In this document: piece by piece, positions 1,675 to 19,271 of the stretch | How positions within the stretch are numbered: position 1 is the first letter of the stretch | Layout of the letters: the number at the start of each line of letters is the position of its first letter | Source: Phycisphaerales bacterium | GTDB lineage: Bacteria > Planctomycetota > Phycisphaerae > Phycisphaerales > SM1A02 | DNA: 35,379 bases | Direction: 5' to 3' | Assembly (NCBI GenBank): GCA_022616475.1 | Contig: JAKEEP010000254.1 | Coordinates: 1 to 35,379 of the forward strand | Translations under genes and position numbers: made by a program | The notes under the pieces: model-generated | Databases searched by the model: none | What the model saw: the letters and a program-made list of their open reading frames with translations, nothing else | Told to the model about the DNA's origin: nothing

Positions 1675-2643
1675 TCACAGAAGCTGCGGTTGCAGCGGTT
1701 CCACGGTTGGCACGTTTCCAGCATCGACGCTCGTCAGCAAATCGGAGATCGTTCGGGAATCACGTTCAGAAACAAAACGGAACAGTGACGCACGCACATA
1801 TTCAAGATTCAAGTCTATGGTCATCCACTTTCGAGACAGTCGCTCGGCCGCCTCCCCGGTTGTTCCGCTACCACCGAAAATGTCTAAGACGAAGTCCTTG
1901 GGGTCGGTCAGAAACCTGATAAAGAACTCCGGCAGGTCCCGCGGAAAGCGCGCCGGATGCGGGTCGATCGTATATTCGTTGCAGAGTCGCAAGTATGTCC
2001 CGTTGCTCTCGCTGTTGGGAAACTGCAACAGATTGGGTGGAATTGCTCCGCCGTTGTCTTTCCCAAAGGCATCGCCGATTTCGTGACCTGAAGGGCGGCT
2101 CTTTGGAGAGTAGAAAGCCGCGGGGTCCTTCAAAAGAGTCTTCATGCGTGCCGAATACGGGACCAAGACATTGGAGACGTTTGCTTTGGGCCATTCACTC
2201 TTACTGAGCCACCACACAGTATTGACGGAATCCTTGGCTCGAAGTTTCCGTTTGTTCACCCATTCGATTGGTGACGGCAGCTTGCTCGGGTTATGCCAAA
2301 AGAACTCTTCAGCGAGATGGAAACCGCAATCATCCACAAGCTCAATCAGGACGCGAAAATTGTAGAGCGATCGTACTGGCACACCCTTGCGATATGCCCC
2401 GCCCAGATCGAGGACGAAACTGCCAGTGGGTTTGAGTGCGCGATGCACAAGCGGACCGAAATCACAAAGCCATTTGACGTAGCTTTCTTGGTCGAGATTG
2501 CCATAGGTCTTCTCTCGAAGCAGCGCAAATGGCGGCGAGGTCACGACGAGGTCGACAGACTCCTGGACCATGCCCGCAAGCACTTCCATCGAATCTCCGA
2601 CCACGGCTTCACCAAGCGGTGTCCTAAAAAGTGGTTTGAACAT
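1675..2643 (-). CDS. pvuIIM: PvuII-type DNA (cytosine-N4) methyltransferase, predicted CAGCTG
   Basis: Beta-class amino-methyltransferase of 322 residues from ATG 2643; an upstream in-frame TTG at 2655 is possible but adds only four residues. The catalytic motif DLVVTSPPFAL (residues 31-41) is of the S-P-P type used by m4C enzymes. The S-adenosylmethionine motif DIFGGSGTTGEAAERL lies near the C-terminus, which is the beta-class order. From memory, much of the middle (for example NPSKLPSPIEWVNKRK and VNTVWWLSKSEWPK) matches M.PvuII closely, so CAGCTG modified at the inner cytosine is the predicted target. It is transcribed divergently from the controller and endonuclease genes, the same arrangement as in the Proteus PvuII system. 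A hand count of one row gives about 50% GC against about 67% in the neighbouring glutamine synthetase, which suggests horizontal acquisition. Confidence 0.92.
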   Translation of the reverse strand: MFKPLFRTPLGEAVVGDSMEVLAGMVQESVDLVVTSPPFALLREKTYGNLDQESYVKWLCDFGPLVHRALKPTGSFVLDLGGAYRKGVPVRSLYNFRVLIELVDDCGFHLAEEFFWHNPSKLPSPIEWVNKRKLRAKDSVNTVWWLSKSEWPKANVSNVLVPYSARMKTLLKDPAAFYSPKSRPSGHEIGDAFGKDNGGAIPPNLLQFPNSESNGTYLRLCNEYTIDPHPARFPRDLPEFFIRFLTDPKDFVLDIFGGSGTTGEAAERLSRKWMTIDLNLEYVRASLFRFVSERDSRTISDLLTSVDAGNVPTVEPLQPQLL

Positions 2644-2719
2644 GATTCGCACCAATCTTTGATGTTGCGCTTTGTCTGTTGAGCAATTTTACGCCCCCGC
2701 GACCCTGTGTGCAACCCCA
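2644..2719. promoter_or_regulatory. Divergent control region of the restriction-modification unit
   Basis: These 76 bases separate the methyltransferase ATG from the controller-gene ATG, so promoters for both directions and the controller's operators are expected here. I looked for the symmetrical GACT/AGTC C-box pattern known from controller-regulated systems and found no convincing copy. The controller ATG has no Shine-Dalgarno, which fits the leaderless transcripts known for several C genes. The role is inferred from gene order, not from a recognised site. Confidence 0.45.
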
Positions 2720-2998
2720 ATGCGCGGAAGTGACTTCACGAAGCGATTCGGTGACCGGCTACGGGAGGCTCGCAAAGCGCGGGGTCTATCCCAGGAGGAC
2801 CTGGCTCACGCCGCCGGATTGCATCGCACGCATGTCAGTCTTATCGAGCGAAACCATCGATCGGTCAGACTCGAAACCCTCGAACGCCTTGCCGCTGCAT
2901 TGAGAGTCGAGCCCGCGTCGCTCATTCCGCCTGCGACTGAACGAGTCAAGCATGGCCGCAACACCTCGCCATCATCCAGACAAAGCAGAACTCGATAA
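2720..2998 (+). CDS. pvuIIC: Restriction-modification controller protein (XRE-family HTH)
   Basis: Small helix-turn-helix regulator of 92 residues from ATG 2720. An in-frame TTG at 2672 would add 16 residues that do not resemble the family, so I prefer the ATG. The HTH core is [20 protein letters not shown] (about residues 23-42), followed by [19 protein letters not shown], the typical Cro/C.PvuII-like fold. In PvuII-type systems the controller activates its own operon, including the endonuclease, after a delay so that methylation comes first. Its 3' end overlaps the endonuclease gene by 47 bases in another frame, as in PvuII. The C-terminal tail after about residue 70 is longer than in the roughly 80-residue C proteins and is probably disordered; it partly results from the overlap. 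Confidence 0.88.
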
Positions 2999-3470
2999 GC
3001 TCTTTCCTGCTATCCGCAAGTATCAGGAATTGGCGACCAGGCATGGTATCGGCGACATCTTCCAAGACAACGGAGGAAAACTCCTGCAGTCGCTGCTCAT
3101 TCTTGACCTGACGTGTGTGGGAAGCCGCGAAGGGAACGATGCCAAAGATTGCTTTGGAAATGAGTACGAGTTGAAAACGGTTAACGTCTTACTCACGCAG
3201 TCGTTCTCGACGCATCATCATCTGAATCCGGTCATTCTCGCGAAGTACCGGAAAGTGCACGCCTGGTATTTCTCGATCTATGAAGGAATTGAGTTGGTGA
3301 GAATCTATCGGATGGAACCTTCGCAGCTCGAGGTGGAGTATTTTGCAAAATGGGAAAGGAAATGGCACGCTTCTGGCGGCAAGGACATCAACAATCCGAA
3401 AATTCCAGTCAAGTTTGTGGAAGCGAACGGGAAGTTGGTGTACGCCGATCCCGTCGATGATCGGCTGTGA
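2952..3470 (+). CDS. pvuIIR: PvuII-type restriction endonuclease, predicted CAGCTG
   Basis: Encodes 172 residues from ATG 2952, slightly longer than PvuII (157). The match to PvuII recalled from memory is strong along the whole length: [49 protein letters not shown] and [13 protein letters not shown] all have counterparts. The PD-(D/E)xK residues of PvuII (Asp58, Glu68, Lys70) correspond here to Asp63, Glu73 and Lys75 with a constant offset of five, and Asp34 corresponds to Asp39. The base-contacting histidines of the STHHH loop are kept at residues 88-90. The enzyme should therefore be catalytically intact and cut CAGCTG to blunt ends as a homodimer; specificity is inferred from similarity. 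It overlaps the controller gene by 47 bases and ends 24 bases before the convergent glutamine synthetase gene. Confidence 0.93.
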
Positions 3471-13160: not shown

Positions 13161-16100
13161 TCAGCGCACAACCGCGCGCCAGCGCTTGACCTGGTCGTGC
13201 TGGCCGAGCGTGTCCAGAAGGTCAGCCAGCGCCTCGAAGTGCCCACGACTTTGCCGATAATTGTCGTAGTCGCCGATGGTCGGCTCGTAGCGTCGCCTGA
13301 TCAGCCGGCAGGCCGGCAACAGGTGGGCGAGCGCTTCGTTGTGTCGTCCGGCGGCCGCGAGGATGAGGCCGAGGTGCGCGTGGAGCACCGCGCCTTCGCC
13401 GATGTTTCGCGAGTCCGGGCGCTCGGCGAGCGTCGCAACCAGCCGCTGCTGAAGCGGCAGCGCCGCGGCCAGGTCGCCCGAATGCATCCAAACGAGCGCG
13501 ACAGCGTCGAGGTAGCCGCGCGCGGCCGCGAGGTCGTCGGCGAAGTGAAGAGTCGCCAGCTCGTGACTACGCTGGGCCCATTGACGAATGTCCGGGTAGC
13601 GTGCGGCCTCGCGAGCAAGTCTCACCGCCGCCTGGCTGCGCCAGCGCAAGAGTCGCTCGGGCTGGTTGGCCAACTCGCGCCCGGCTCGTTCGAGGATCCC
13701 ATTCACCTGCGCGATGTCCTGCGGCGCCGCGGGTCGCGCTTCGATCGCGGTGAGCAAATTGACAAACGCGCTGAAGGCTGGCTCGGCCTGCCATCCGAGG
13801 GTTTCGATGAGCGCCTCGAGCTGATCCGACCATAGGCTGCGCGCCTCATCGTACCGCCCGAGCGTGCGCAACGTGACTCCCCGAAGGTAGGTCAGTGATC
13901 TGCGCAGCGGGTGATCGGGCGAGTGTTCTTGAACGGCTTGTTCGTGCAGTTCGACGGCCGTCGGCAGCAGGCGCGCGGCAAGGGCGCGGCGCGACGGCCG
14001 TGACAGGACGTAATGCCCAATGATGGAGAGGGTGGCGGCCTGTTCTCTCACATCAGCGGGCATGCCTTGAGCCGATGCGGCGTCGCGGATCGTGCGCTCG
14101 AGGATGGTCGATGCGCCGTCGATGTCGCCGAAGTCGGCCATGGTCGCGGCTTGCCAAGCCAGATCGCGGGGACCGACCTTGGCGCCGGCCACATACATGG
14201 AATGGCCGAATTCGGCCGACACGGCGCGAATCTCGTCGGGGCGATTCTCGATATCGAGCATCGTGATCAGGTCCCGCCGCACAACTTGGGCCCCGACGCC
14301 GTCGCTGCCGTAGATGCTGCAATAGTCGTCGTACACCTGGCGCGCGGAGGCGATAGCCTCCTCCACGTCGCCGAGCTCGTAGAGCACATCGGTGACCGAG
14401 CGCCGCCCTTCAAGGTACGCGCCGTCGTGGAGAGCGCCCTGGGGCAAGTCATCCAGCGCGCGGCGGAGGACCAGCCTGCTTTCCTCGGGTTCATCCTCGA
14501 GTGCCAAGCGATCGGCCAGGGCCATGTGGGCGCGAAAGGTCAAGGGGTCGCCGGGCCCCAGCATGCGTTCAGTGTCGGCGACCACGGCCCGCGCCTCGGC
14601 CACCGCGCTGGGGCGTGCCGTGGCGAACCATCCGGTGTACGCCGCGCGCACGCGCGCCCGCAGCGTGTCGGGATCATTCGGGCCGAGCACCTTGACCACC
14701 ACCGGCAGCCGTTCTTCCAGTTCATCAATGGCCGTCGTCGGCGTGTCGCGCGCTTGAACGAAAGCTCTCAGCGCCGTTGGATGCTCTGCTCCGAGCGTGC
14801 GCTCGTAGATACTGGCGCCGTCCATCATCTGCGTAAAGCCGTCTTGCCACGAGATGCACATCAGCCCCTGCCCGATGATCATCCGGATCTCTGCTTCGAC
14901 CAGCGGACGCCCCGCGGTGGCGGTAGGGATCTCGGGGATGACGCGACGAAGGAGCTCGGCCACTTTGAGTTCACCCGGGCGCGCATCGGGCGCTGCGGCC
15001 AATGCGTCCAGCGTGGCGGCACGGCTTGGATCGTCCCAGGCTTTCTCCCCGCCCAAGCGATCCTTTGGAGCGATGGTTGGATCGATCAACGCGAGCATCT
15101 TCCGCAGGAACTCGGTGACGGCGCGGGCGTTGGCAGCCTCCTCCTCAGCGTGGGCTCGTGCCTTGGCCTCGGCGTCGCGCGCGACCAGAGCCTCGGCGTG
15201 TCCCTTGGCCTCATCGCGGCGGCCGTTCTGGGCCTGGACCATCCCATATGCCGACGCCGCCAAGCCCGCCGACATCGCCAGCGCGATCGCGCCGGCGGCG
15301 GCGAAGGCGACCTTGTTCCGCCGGACCAGCTTCTTGAACCGGTAGATGCGGCTCGGCGGTGAAGCGAGCACGGCGTCGCCGCGCAGATGGCGCCGAACAT
15401 CATGCGCCAACGCGGAGGCCGACTCATAGCGCCGGCGTCGATCCTTCTCCAACGCGCGCATGACAATCCAATCAAGTTCGCCGCGGATGGCGCTGCTCAG
15501 CTTCGTCGGCTCCATGCGCCGGCGCTTCGCGACGGTGGTGAGGCTCTCCTTTCCGAATGTGCTGACTCTCGTGGAGGGCTTTGCGGGTTCGCAGTCGCGG
15601 ATCATCCGGTAAATCTCGGTGAAGCCTGCCTGGCGCAGCGTCGCCGCGTCCAGCGGCGTGACGCCCGTCAGCAACTCGTAGAGCAGCACCCCCAGCGAGT
15701 ACACGTCGCTGCGGGTGTCCACATCCAAGCCCGACATCTCCGCCTGCTCGGGGCTCACGTATTCGGGCGTGCCGATGAACTGATGGAACTGGGTGAACAG
15801 GGTGCGCTCGGTCAGTCGGGCGTTGGTCGCTTTGGCAATGCCGAAATCGATCACCTTGGGAACCGGCTCCCCGTCGTGAAGCGTCACCAGGATGTTGCTG
15901 GGCTTGAGGTCACGGTGGATGACCCCCTTCTCGTGCGCATTCTGCACGGCTGAGCAGACTTGAGCGAAGAGCTCCAGGCGCTCGCGCGGCGACAGTTCGT
16001 TGGTGTCGCAGAACTCCGTAATGGGCACACCCCGGACCAACTCCATGACGAAATAGGGGCGTCCTGATTCAGTGGCGCCGGCGTCGAGCACTCGCGCGAT

Positions 16101-16520
16101 GTTGGGATGGTCCATCAGCGCAAGGGCCTGCCGCTCGGCCTCGAAACGCGCCAGCACCTGTTTGGTGTCCATGCCGAGCTTGATGATCTTCAGCGCCACT
16201 CGGCGGCGGATGGGCTCGACCTGCTCGGCCATGTACACGATTCCGAAGCCGCCTTCGCCGATCACTTGCAGCAGCTTGTACCGCCCGACTGTCGCGCCAA
16301 GCCCCTCGGCGATCGCGGCGCCGTCAGCGAGGGGTCCCTCATCTGCTGTTGGATCGCGAAGGAATTTCCCTGACTCATCATGCACGACCAGCAATTGCTC
16401 TACTTCCGCACGGAGGTCCGGGTGACCCGCGCAGGCTCGCTCGAGGTAAGCCGATCGCTGGTGCTGCGCCAGGTCCAGCGCTTCGCCGAAGACATCCATT
16501 GGGGTCCTCTCAGCTGTCAT
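13161..16520 (-). CDS. Transmembrane Ser/Thr protein kinase with helical-repeat C-terminus
   Basis: From ATG 16520 (GGAGAAGG about 4 bases upstream) the protein has 1119 residues. The Hanks-type kinase domain spans about 81-380: glycine loop IGEGGFGIVY (87-96), ATP-anchoring Lys111 (VALKIIK), catalytic loop HRDLKPSN (202-209), DFG at 225-227, and the GTPEYVSPEQ substrate-side motif. All residues needed for activity are present. One membrane helix lies at about 403-427, followed by an Ala/Glu/Arg-rich helical stretch (about 430-480) and a long region of TPR-like helical repeats to the end. The gene overlaps the ECF sigma factor gene by 11 bases. In Planctomycetota such sigma-kinase pairs are common, and the kinase is thought to modulate the sigma factor. 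The signal sensed is unknown. Confidence 0.92.
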   Translation of the reverse strand: MTAERTPMDVFGEALDLAQHQRSAYLERACAGHPDLRAEVEQLLVVHDESGKFLRDPTADEGPLADGAAIAEGLGATVGRYKLLQVIGEGGFGIVYMAEQVEPIRRRVALKIIKLGMDTKQVLARFEAERQALALMDHPNIARVLDAGATESGRPYFVMELVRGVPITEFCDTNELSPRERLELFAQVCSAVQNAHEKGVIHRDLKPSNILVTLHDGEPVPKVIDFGIAKATNARLTERTLFTQFHQFIGTPEYVSPEQAEMSGLDVDTRSDVYSLGVLLYELLTGVTPLDAATLRQAGFTEIYRMIRDCEPAKPSTRVSTFGKESLTTVAKRRRMEPTKLSSAIRGELDWIVMRALEKDRRRRYESASALAHDVRRHLRGDAVLASPPSRIYRFKKLVRRNKVAFAAAGAIALAMSAGLAASAYGMVQAQNGRRDEAKGHAEALVARDAEAKARAHAEEEAANARAVTEFLRKMLALIDPTIAPKDRLGGEKAWDDPSRAATLDALAAAPDARPGELKVAELLRRVIPEIPTATAGRPLVEAEIRMIIGQGLMCISWQDGFTQMMDGASIYERTLGAEHPTALRAFVQARDTPTTAIDELEERLPVVVKVLGPNDPDTLRARVRAAYTGWFATARPSAVAEARAVVADTERMLGPGDPLTFRAHMALADRLALEDEPEESRLVLRRALDDLPQGALHDGAYLEGRRSVTDVLYELGDVEEAIASARQVYDDYCSIYGSDGVGAQVVRRDLITMLDIENRPDEIRAVSAEFGHSMYVAGAKVGPRDLAWQAATMADFGDIDGASTILERTIRDAASAQGMPADVREQAATLSIIGHYVLSRPSRRALAARLLPTAVELHEQAVQEHSPDHPLRRSLTYLRGVTLRTLGRYDEARSLWSDQLEALIETLGWQAEPAFSAFVNLLTAIEARPAAPQDIAQVNGILERAGRELANQPERLLRWRSQAAVRLAREAARYPDIRQWAQRSHELATLHFADDLAAARGYLDAVALVWMHSGDLAAALPLQQRLVATLAERPDSRNIGEGAVLHAHLGLILAAAGRHNEALAHLLPACRLIRRRYEPTIGDYDNYRQSRGHFEALADLLDTLGQHDQVKRWRAVVR

Positions 16521-17160
16521 GAGCCTTCTCCATTTTGCCTTGGTCTTTGATGCCCGAGCCGCGCAGGTCGCGCAACAACCACGCCCGCGCGAACGCCCAG
16601 GCGCGATCGACGCTTCGCGGGGAGATGCCCGCCACCTCGGCGGTCTGGTCAACGCTCATCCCGGCGAAGAAGCGGAGCTTGACGACCTCCGCCGCTTGCG
16701 GCTCGACCGCCGCCAGCCGGTTCAGCGATTCGTCAAGGGCGACCAACGCCCCCCAGTCCTGTGAGAGGGTCAGGTCGTCCAGACGGGTCAGGCAGCGCGT
16801 CCAGTCGCGCCCCCGTTTGATTGCCGAGTGGCGCCGCGCATGATCGACGAGAATTCTGCGCATCGCCTCCGCGGCGGCGCCAAAAAAATAAGTTCGAGAC
16901 CCCCACGCGCTCCCTTCATGCTTGCTCAAACGCAGATACGCCTCGTGAACCAGCGCCGTCGCTTGAAGGGTCAGGCCCGGCGACTCGGCGTTCAACTGGT
17001 GCTGGGCCAGGGCCCGCAGCTCGTTGTAGATCAACGGGAACCAGTTCCGTGCCGCGGAGACCTCGCCGCCGTCCTGCGGCGCGGAGGCTTCGCCGCCGTG
17101 CGAATCCTGTTGTGTTGACGCCGCTGAGACCTCCTCGAGTTGACAGGAATCAAGGCTCAC
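16510..17160 (-). CDS. ECF-family RNA polymerase sigma factor
   Basis: The frame is open to 17238 but begins with a Cys-rich stretch unlike the family. I take GTG 17160 as start (AGAGG a few bases upstream), giving 216 residues. Region sigma2 begins around WFPLIYNELRALAQHQLNAE and includes ATALVHEAYLRL and FFGAAAEAMRRILVDHARR. Region sigma4 is LNRLAAVEPQAAEVVKLRFF followed by the HTH stretch SVDQTAEVAGISPRSVDRAW. This matches the ECF-type sigma factors abundant in Planctomycetota and Acidobacteria that are co-encoded with protein kinases. It would direct transcription of a dedicated regulon, possibly under control of the adjacent kinase. The target promoters are not known, and there is no anti-sigma factor gene beside it. 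Confidence 0.88.
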   Translation of the reverse strand: MSLDSCQLEEVSAASTQQDSHGGEASAPQDGGEVSAARNWFPLIYNELRALAQHQLNAESPGLTLQATALVHEAYLRLSKHEGSAWGSRTYFFGAAAEAMRRILVDHARRHSAIKRGRDWTRCLTRLDDLTLSQDWGALVALDESLNRLAAVEPQAAEVVKLRFFAGMSVDQTAEVAGISPRSVDRAWAFARAWLLRDLRGSGIKDQGKMEKAHDS

Positions 17161-17558: not shown

Positions 17559-19271
17559 TTAGCGCGGCCCGCCCAGCGTTCCGGCTTGGCGCGTTCTCAG
17601 CAGCGCGATGAACTCCGTGAAGCCGTTGACCTGCATGACGCCTTGGCGCACGTGTGCATCGAGGAACGTGCGCGAGATGTCGGCCAGAATCTCGAGCTGC
17701 GCTCCATTATCGTCGGCGGGCGTGAGAATGAGGAAGATCATCTGCGACGGTTCGCCGTCGGGTGCGGCAAACTCGATCCCCTGGCGCGAAATCCCCAGGC
17801 AAACCAGCGGCTTGTTCATTCCGTGCAGCCTCGCATGCGGAACGGCGACGCATAAACCGAGGCCGGTCGGCATCATGCGCTCGCGCTTCAGAACGGCGCC
17901 TTCGATCGCCTCTGCATTCAATCCGCTGATGCCCGACGCTGCCCGCGCTAATTCCCGAATGGCCTCTTCGCGCTCGATCGCCTGCAAGGGATTGATGAAC
18001 CCCTTTGGATGAAGGTAGTCGAGAAAGCGGCGCGGGGCGCGTCGCTGGAGCACCCACTGCATCGCTGTGCCGCTGATCATGGAGGTGGCGATGGCCATGA
18101 TGACCAGGGCGACGAACAATCGCTCGGTGATGACTCTGAACTCGAGCGCCAGCGTGCCCAGAATGATCTCCATGGCGCCTCGGGAATTCATGCCGAAGCC
18201 GATAGCCCACGATTCGCGCCATCCCATGCCCGCATGCCGGGCGCCCAGTCCGCAGCCAAGCACTTTGCTGACCATGGCGATGAACAGGACAACCAGGGTG
18301 ATATCCCAGTCGAAGAACGCCAGGAAGTTCAGTCGCAGGCCGATGCTGGCAAAGAACAGCGGAGCGAAGATGAAGGAGACGAATTGCTCGATGGTGGCGC
18401 GCGTGCGGTCGCGCAAGTGCGGTGAATCGCCCAAGGCGACGCCCACCATGAAAGAGCCGAAGACCGCATGGATGCCGATCGATTCGGTGAACGCCGCGCC
18501 AAATAGCGCCAAGGCCAGCGCAAATGCGAGTACCCCGCCCGGCCAGGATGTCTTGGCCTGTATCCATGGCAGAATCCAGTGGACGAGCCAGCGGCCGATC
18601 GTGAGCATGAACGCCACAAAAAAGATGGTCAGGCCGATTGTGCTGGTGATCAGCATGCCGCCGGTGTCATGCTGCATCAGGCCAAGGACGATGGCGAAGA
18701 TGAACCATCCGGTCAGATCGTCGAAGATCGCCGCCGCAATCACGATCATTCCCAGATCGCTTCGATAGAGATTCAGGTCCATCAGGGTCTTGGCGATGAC
18801 CGGCAACGCCGAGATGGACATGGCCGTCGCGAAAAACAGAGCGAAGATGTAGGGCTGAACCTCGGGACTGCGGCCCAGAAAATCGGGAGTCACCCAGGCT
18901 GCGGTCAGCCCGATTCCGAAGGGAACCAAGATGCCCGAGAGGCTCACCGCGACGGCAGCCCGGCCTTGGCGGAAGATCCTCGAAAGATCGACCTCCATTC
19001 CGGCTACGAGCAAGAACAAGACCACGGCCACCGTCGTTATCCCTTGCAGAACCACTTCCGGTCCGCCGCCCTTTGGAAACAGCCAATGTTCCAGCTCCGG
19101 CCAGACGGGCCTAAGCACCGTCGGGCCCAGAATGATCCCGGCTAGGAGTTCACCGATCACGGCCGGCTGATTGAACTTTCGGAAGACTTCACCCAGGATG
19201 CGCGCCAGCGCCAGCATGACTCCCAGAGACAACAGGACGACGGTGATTTCGTGGGCAGTCAGTGCGTGCAT
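17559..19271 (-). CDS. CPA2-family cation:proton antiporter fused to a PTS EIIA-type domain
   Basis: Encodes 570 residues from ATG 19271. Residues about 1-400 form a Na+/H+ exchanger-type membrane domain with around 12 hydrophobic segments. Family stretches include NQPAVIGELLAGIILGPTV near the N-terminus, LLVAGMEVDL, and the ion-binding-region helix FDDLTGWFIF with paired acidic residues. After a linker, residues about 425-565 form an EIIA domain of the fructose/nitrogen PTS type. Its phosphorylatable histidine is His479 in VAVPHARLHG, preceded by LKRERMMPTGLGLC. The fusion suggests that antiport is tuned by PTS phosphorylation. Whether K+ or Na+ is carried cannot be told. It is divergent from the secreted protein gene at 19313, with only 41 bases between start codons. 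Confidence 0.9.
   Translation of the reverse strand: MHALTAHEITVVLLSLGVMLALARILGEVFRKFNQPAVIGELLAGIILGPTVLRPVWPELEHWLFPKGGGPEVVLQGITTVAVVLFLLVAGMEVDLSRIFRQGRAAVAVSLSGILVPFGIGLTAAWVTPDFLGRSPEVQPYIFALFFATAMSISALPVIAKTLMDLNLYRSDLGMIVIAAAIFDDLTGWFIFAIVLGLMQHDTGGMLITSTIGLTIFFVAFMLTIGRWLVHWILPWIQAKTSWPGGVLAFALALALFGAAFTESIGIHAVFGSFMVGVALGDSPHLRDRTRATIEQFVSFIFAPLFFASIGLRLNFLAFFDWDITLVVLFIAMVSKVLGCGLGARHAGMGWRESWAIGFGMNSRGAMEIILGTLALEFRVITERLFVALVIMAIATSMISGTAMQWVLQRRAPRRFLDYLHPKGFINPLQAIEREEAIRELARAASGISGLNAEAIEGAVLKRERMMPTGLGLCVAVPHARLHGMNKPLVCLGISRQGIEFAAPDGEPSQMIFLILTPADDNGAQLEILADISRTFLDAHVRQGVMQVNGFTEFIALLRTRQAGTLGGPR

Follow-up and report, generated by a model that had tools for sequence, protein, structure and literature searches.

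Does a restriction-modification (R-M) system that resembles PvuII in its enzymes and gene order also share the control of PvuII? This question is raised by a locus in a 35,379-nucleotide stretch of DNA from a Phycisphaerales bacterium (contig JAKEEP010000254.1; hereafter the window), whose genome is a bin of 88% completeness and 4.9% contamination. PvuII is a model for the entry of R-M systems into a new host without killing it. The best overall explanation, which is probably correct, is that the window carries an intact, acquired PvuII-type Type IIP R-M system for CAGCTG, in which the controller protein C would bind a changed DNA block and repress the methyltransferase gene M. The features of the locus are as follows:

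Positions 1675 to 2655, minus strand: M, a PvuII-type beta-class N4-cytosine methyltransferase (motifs TSPPF and FGGSGTTG; PF01555, PDB 1boo, M.PvuII).
Positions 2663 to 2681, plus strand: the variant C-box TGTTGCGCTTTGTCTGTTG, a predicted C-protein binding site (six-locus conservation; pattern from three loci).
Positions 2686 to 2714, minus strand: a leftward promoter-like element for M, TTGCAC-N17-TAAAAT (six-locus conservation, shuffles, consensus scan).
Positions 2720 to 2998, plus strand: C, an XRE-type controller protein with its recognition helix (PF01381; PDB; C.PvuII).
Positions 2952 to 3470, plus strand: R, a PvuII-type endonuclease (PF09225; PDB; residue map).

Translation of the window yields three intact open reading frames at 1675-3470. 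The preliminary description had placed a complete PvuII-type C-R-M system here, and the reading frames, the protein families and the integrity of the frames bear this out. As had also been proposed, the gene order, with a divergent M and a C gene overlapping R, equals that of PvuII on the Proteus plasmid pPvu1 (NC_002632), and the same PvuII-type M/C/R order was found in the retrieved relatives of R wherever enough flanking sequence was available. The overlap of C and R comprises 47 bp in the window and 23 bp in pPvu1. The longest frame of M begins with TTG at 2655; the homologs agree better with the ATG at 2643, which is therefore more likely to be the start.

The window enzymes are ordinary additions to the PvuII family, and the catalytic and specificity residues of the pPvu1 system are shared. 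R matches PF09225 with 224.7 bits (E 6.9e-67; curated cut-off 25), its PDB matches are PvuII chains only, and 97 of 155 residues (62.6%) are identical to R.PvuII of pPvu1. Catalytic residues at a constant offset from PvuII had been claimed, which holds for the stretch from D34 to H85: D34 and the catalytic residues D58, E68 and K70 are present as D39, D63, E73 and K75 (offset 5), and S81, H83, H84 and H85 of the recognition loop correspond to S86, H88, H89 and H90, so that the STHHH loop is kept, as described before. The offset does not extend to N140 and N141, which are found at N147 and N148 (offset 7), and H15 of R.PvuII is replaced by A20. From this residue map, we infer that R cuts CAGCTG. 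Cutting by a Niabella homolog is described as indistinguishable from that of PvuII (PMC3850674). M belongs to PF01555 (E 1.9e-40), and its best PDB match is M.PvuII (1boo, 439 bits; runner-up 52.6 bits), with which it shares 186 of 304 residues (61%) as well as the beta-class motif order with SPPF and FGGSGTTG. CAGCTG is thus the expected target for both cutting and protection in a complete, intact-looking system. M would place m4C on CAGCTG and so protect the sites, R would cleave CAGCTG where it is unmethylated, and C would set the timing of M and R expression.

The earlier claim that everything matches PvuII stands for gene order and enzymes and fails for the control layer, in which the canonical C-box is missing and the C helix is different. 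C is assigned to PF01381 (E 1.4e-16), and its PDB matches are C.AhdI, C.BclI and C.Esp1396I; the identity to C.PvuII is 42% over 67 aa. In C.Esp1396I, R46 and T36 contact GTC, plus the TG just outside (PMC4041747, PMC3758141). The base-contact residues R35, T36 and R46 of this protein are all kept in the window C, whereas Y37 and N47 of the C.PvuII/C.Esp1396I recognition region are replaced by H and S. The recognition helix reads RTH(V/I)SLIE instead of the usual RTY(V/I)GS(V/I)ER. Among viral contigs, the window C had just three weak matches, and its relatives there and in plasmids are annotated as generic XRE regulators.

For the analysis of the operator, the M-C-R gaps of 86 PvuII-type loci were scored against a PvuII C-box weight matrix in leave-one-out fashion. 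The canonical C-box GCTACTTATAGTCTGTAGACTCATAGTCATCA scored between 19.6 and 55 bits in 64 of the 86 gaps. Upstream of the window C gene, no canonical two-operator C-box with GACT/AGTC repeats was detected (-12.3 bits; maximum of the shuffled controls -10.5), and in its place the window carries TGTTGCGCWTTGTCTGTWG at 2663-2681. By its position and sequence family, C would act as a C protein; because the canonical C-box test failed, its classification as a normal C.PvuII would be misleading. Two further loci, L002 and L063 (R 75% and 68%), also score low, share the block TGTTGCGCWTTGTCTGTTG with the window, and encode C proteins with the helix HRTH(V/I)SLIE, while RTY is present in nearly all others.

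The variant pattern was defined on these three planctomycete loci and then tested on new loci. L139, L145 and L146, which were retrieved from whole genomes by using R alone, each possess the variant helix and the variant block; six other new loci (L137, L138, L140, L141, L142 and L143) have the canonical helix with a canonical or near-canonical box. Altogether, the block accompanies all six C proteins with the RTH helix, three of them out-of-sample, and none of the 93 others. With up to one mismatch, it is the sole site in each of the six genomes, always at the R-M locus, and is absent from seven comparison genomes. Moreover, the window is the only match to the 18-base core pattern in a phylum sample of 392 genomes, and the two exact matches to the variant box in viral contigs, neither of which is an R-M locus, are consistent with chance. 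Chance sharing of the block itself was rejected, as the six loci show no variation in 17 of its 19 columns, and the same is true of just 2 of 72 M and 0 of 20 R fourfold sites. A coding explanation was also rejected: the block is read in three different frames among the loci and is therefore not conserved as protein.

In a tree of R and M, the three loci that defined the pattern group with a support of 1.0, and in trees with L139 as the only further variant locus, the support is 0.994 for M, 0.999 for C and 0.841 for R. The six variant loci most likely form one clade, and hence represent one evolutionary change of helix and box. Since they form one clade, the link between helix and box is a correlation and not replicated co-evolution. 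What the compared sequences demonstrate is that, specifically in this clade, an altered recognition helix of C goes together with an altered, strongly conserved DNA block. A third C-box-like element, the near-palindrome CTCCGAATATATTCGGAG, is present together with the C helix RTYIGYIEN in a further set of loci, many of which have Bacteroidota titles (M-C gaps of L036, L041, L045, L052, L055, L064, L069, L075, L079, L081 and L086); therefore, three or more C/box classes exist among PvuII-type systems.

Read on the strand of M, a -10 element (TAAAAT/TACAAT) precedes the block by four bases in all six loci, and a TTG (-35) is located at N17 in five of them, an arrangement that was equalled in 0 of 20,000 shuffles. 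A consensus scan also recovered the promoter-like element, although the M promoter of the window agrees only weakly with the consensus (9 of 12 at N16). The transcription start of M is thus expected within the variant block. Because the block covers this expected start, C, by binding the block, should repress M, and repression of M would relieve divergent interference and favour the expression of C and R. For C and R, a search of the plus strand of the window gave no convincing promoter hexamers. Between the variant box and the C start, a near-perfect inverted repeat, TTGTACRC-N12-GYGTACAA, spans the -35 and -10 regions of M in L145, L146 and L063; it is degenerate in the window and is a possible second operator.

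As the block abuts a promoter-like element, it may be asked whether it is merely the core of the divergent promoter, with a C protein that is non-functional or binds elsewhere. The identity of only 42% to C.PvuII fits this explanation, and RNA polymerase or another factor could partly account for the conservation. However, the 17 invariant columns far exceed the needs of a promoter spacer, the GTC-TG half-site contacted by C.Esp1396I is kept in the block, and C is more conserved than R between the window and L139 (73% versus 62%), which makes this explanation unlikely. Ordinary PvuII control, with a canonical two-site C-box that has degenerated but continues to serve C, appears quite improbable. 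GTCTG and the TGT(A/T)G spacer of the canonical box indeed align in register with the variant, and in L050, a sister by R and M, the left site is canonical-like and the right one is degraded. Yet the window score is no better than that of shuffles, the variant loci have no recognisable right operator of the canonical kind, and the left-hand TGTTGCGC, which is new in the variant block, is invariant across the variants. A decayed or broken system with an inactive R is scarcely credible given that all frames are intact and the catalytic and recognition residues are kept.

Under the preferred reading, an acquired system with C acting on the changed block, the relation to the host has to be considered. 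Unlike its counterpart on pPvu1, the window system is chromosomal. The host had been described as planctomycete-like, and indeed it falls into the same Phycisphaerales family as the genome of L032 and L142, two loci with identical M-C intergenic sequences and C proteins that appear to be from one genome. In 18 of 29 genomes examined from this family, tig comes directly after glnA-III, and the 15-252 bp between them contain no R-M genes. The corresponding gap in the window measures 1,921 bp and contains the R-M genes only. The GC content is 50.3% for R, 53.6% for M, 59.5% for C and 62.3% for glnA. The 48-50% reported previously was thus found as a local minimum in R, but the next gene, glnA, does not reach the 67% given for it. 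The GC3 values of M (0.61), C (0.58) and R (0.61) are below those of tig (0.81), glnA (0.83) and trpA (0.73). Because of the empty junctions in relatives and the low GC3, horizontal acquisition of the R-M system between two housekeeping genes is well supported; the recency that had been proposed with it is not. A target-site duplication was sought at the insertion, and just weak 13-14 nt repeats were detected. PvuII-type R proteins are sparse, with 1 in 392 genomes of a phylum-wide and 7 in 397 of a class-wide sample, and a PvuII-type system with canonical control is also present in G397, another genome of the family. Elsewhere, the window encodes a large serine/threonine kinase with TPR repeats (13164-16652) and a fusion of a Na+/H+ exchanger domain with a PTS EIIA-2 domain (17562-19271).

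The four CAGCTG sites listed for the window (3783, 16511, 26915 and 32575) are all correctly placed; 9.2 would be expected from a maximal-order model and 12 from shuffles. Avoidance of CAGCTG as a mark of long residence was rejected: with 858 sites in 3.66 Mb, the genome falls inside the range of 30 relatives. Across the genome, no clear avoidance of CAGCTG is seen, and M must protect these sites if R is active.

How does the proposed control relate to known systems? PvuII is governed by a two-operator activator-repressor switch, whereas C of the window is proposed to repress M at the block. C.Kpn2I acts against the promoter of M, and divergent transcription of C increases as a result (PMC6237814), a logic that resembles the proposed one; the likeness concerns the logic and not a kinship of the proteins. 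The C.Kpn2I site lies within the C gene, whereas the window block is upstream of C, over the expected M start, and thus not placed for a roadblock inside the C coding region; the frame across the block varies. C.Csp231I with motif 8 (PMC3115060) provides a precedent for a separate C class with its own box, but differs in its CTAAG-N5-CTTAG repeats, two extra C-terminal helices and sequence. PvuII-type C-R fusions (Liang and Blumenthal 2013; PMC3850674) share the R family, whereas in the window C and R overlap as two distinct genes. In L063, L145 and L146 of the variant-box group, a single frame encodes both C and R, as in the fusions of that study. Its text passages describe fused, unfused and C-less classes and no box of the window's kind, and a text search of the literature for planctomycete C-boxes gave nothing. 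A catalogue of ten C-box motifs by Sorokin et al. (2009) is cited in PMC6237814 and PMC4824078, and the block may be among these motifs. From the comparisons above, we infer that C and its box form a new class, in which C would control M directly. That this is an undescribed controller class with a cognate C-box, so far confined to PvuII-type systems of planctomycetes and relying on one site over the M start in place of the two-operator switch, has about an even chance of being correct.

The canonical, the planctomycete and the third, Bacteroidota loci would represent a natural series in which R and M are alike and controller and operator differ. Such a series would allow direct tests of how C proteins change their DNA specificity, and could show whether control circuits become mutually incompatible. 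The variant systems are also predicted to escape cross-activation by resident canonical PvuII-type C proteins.
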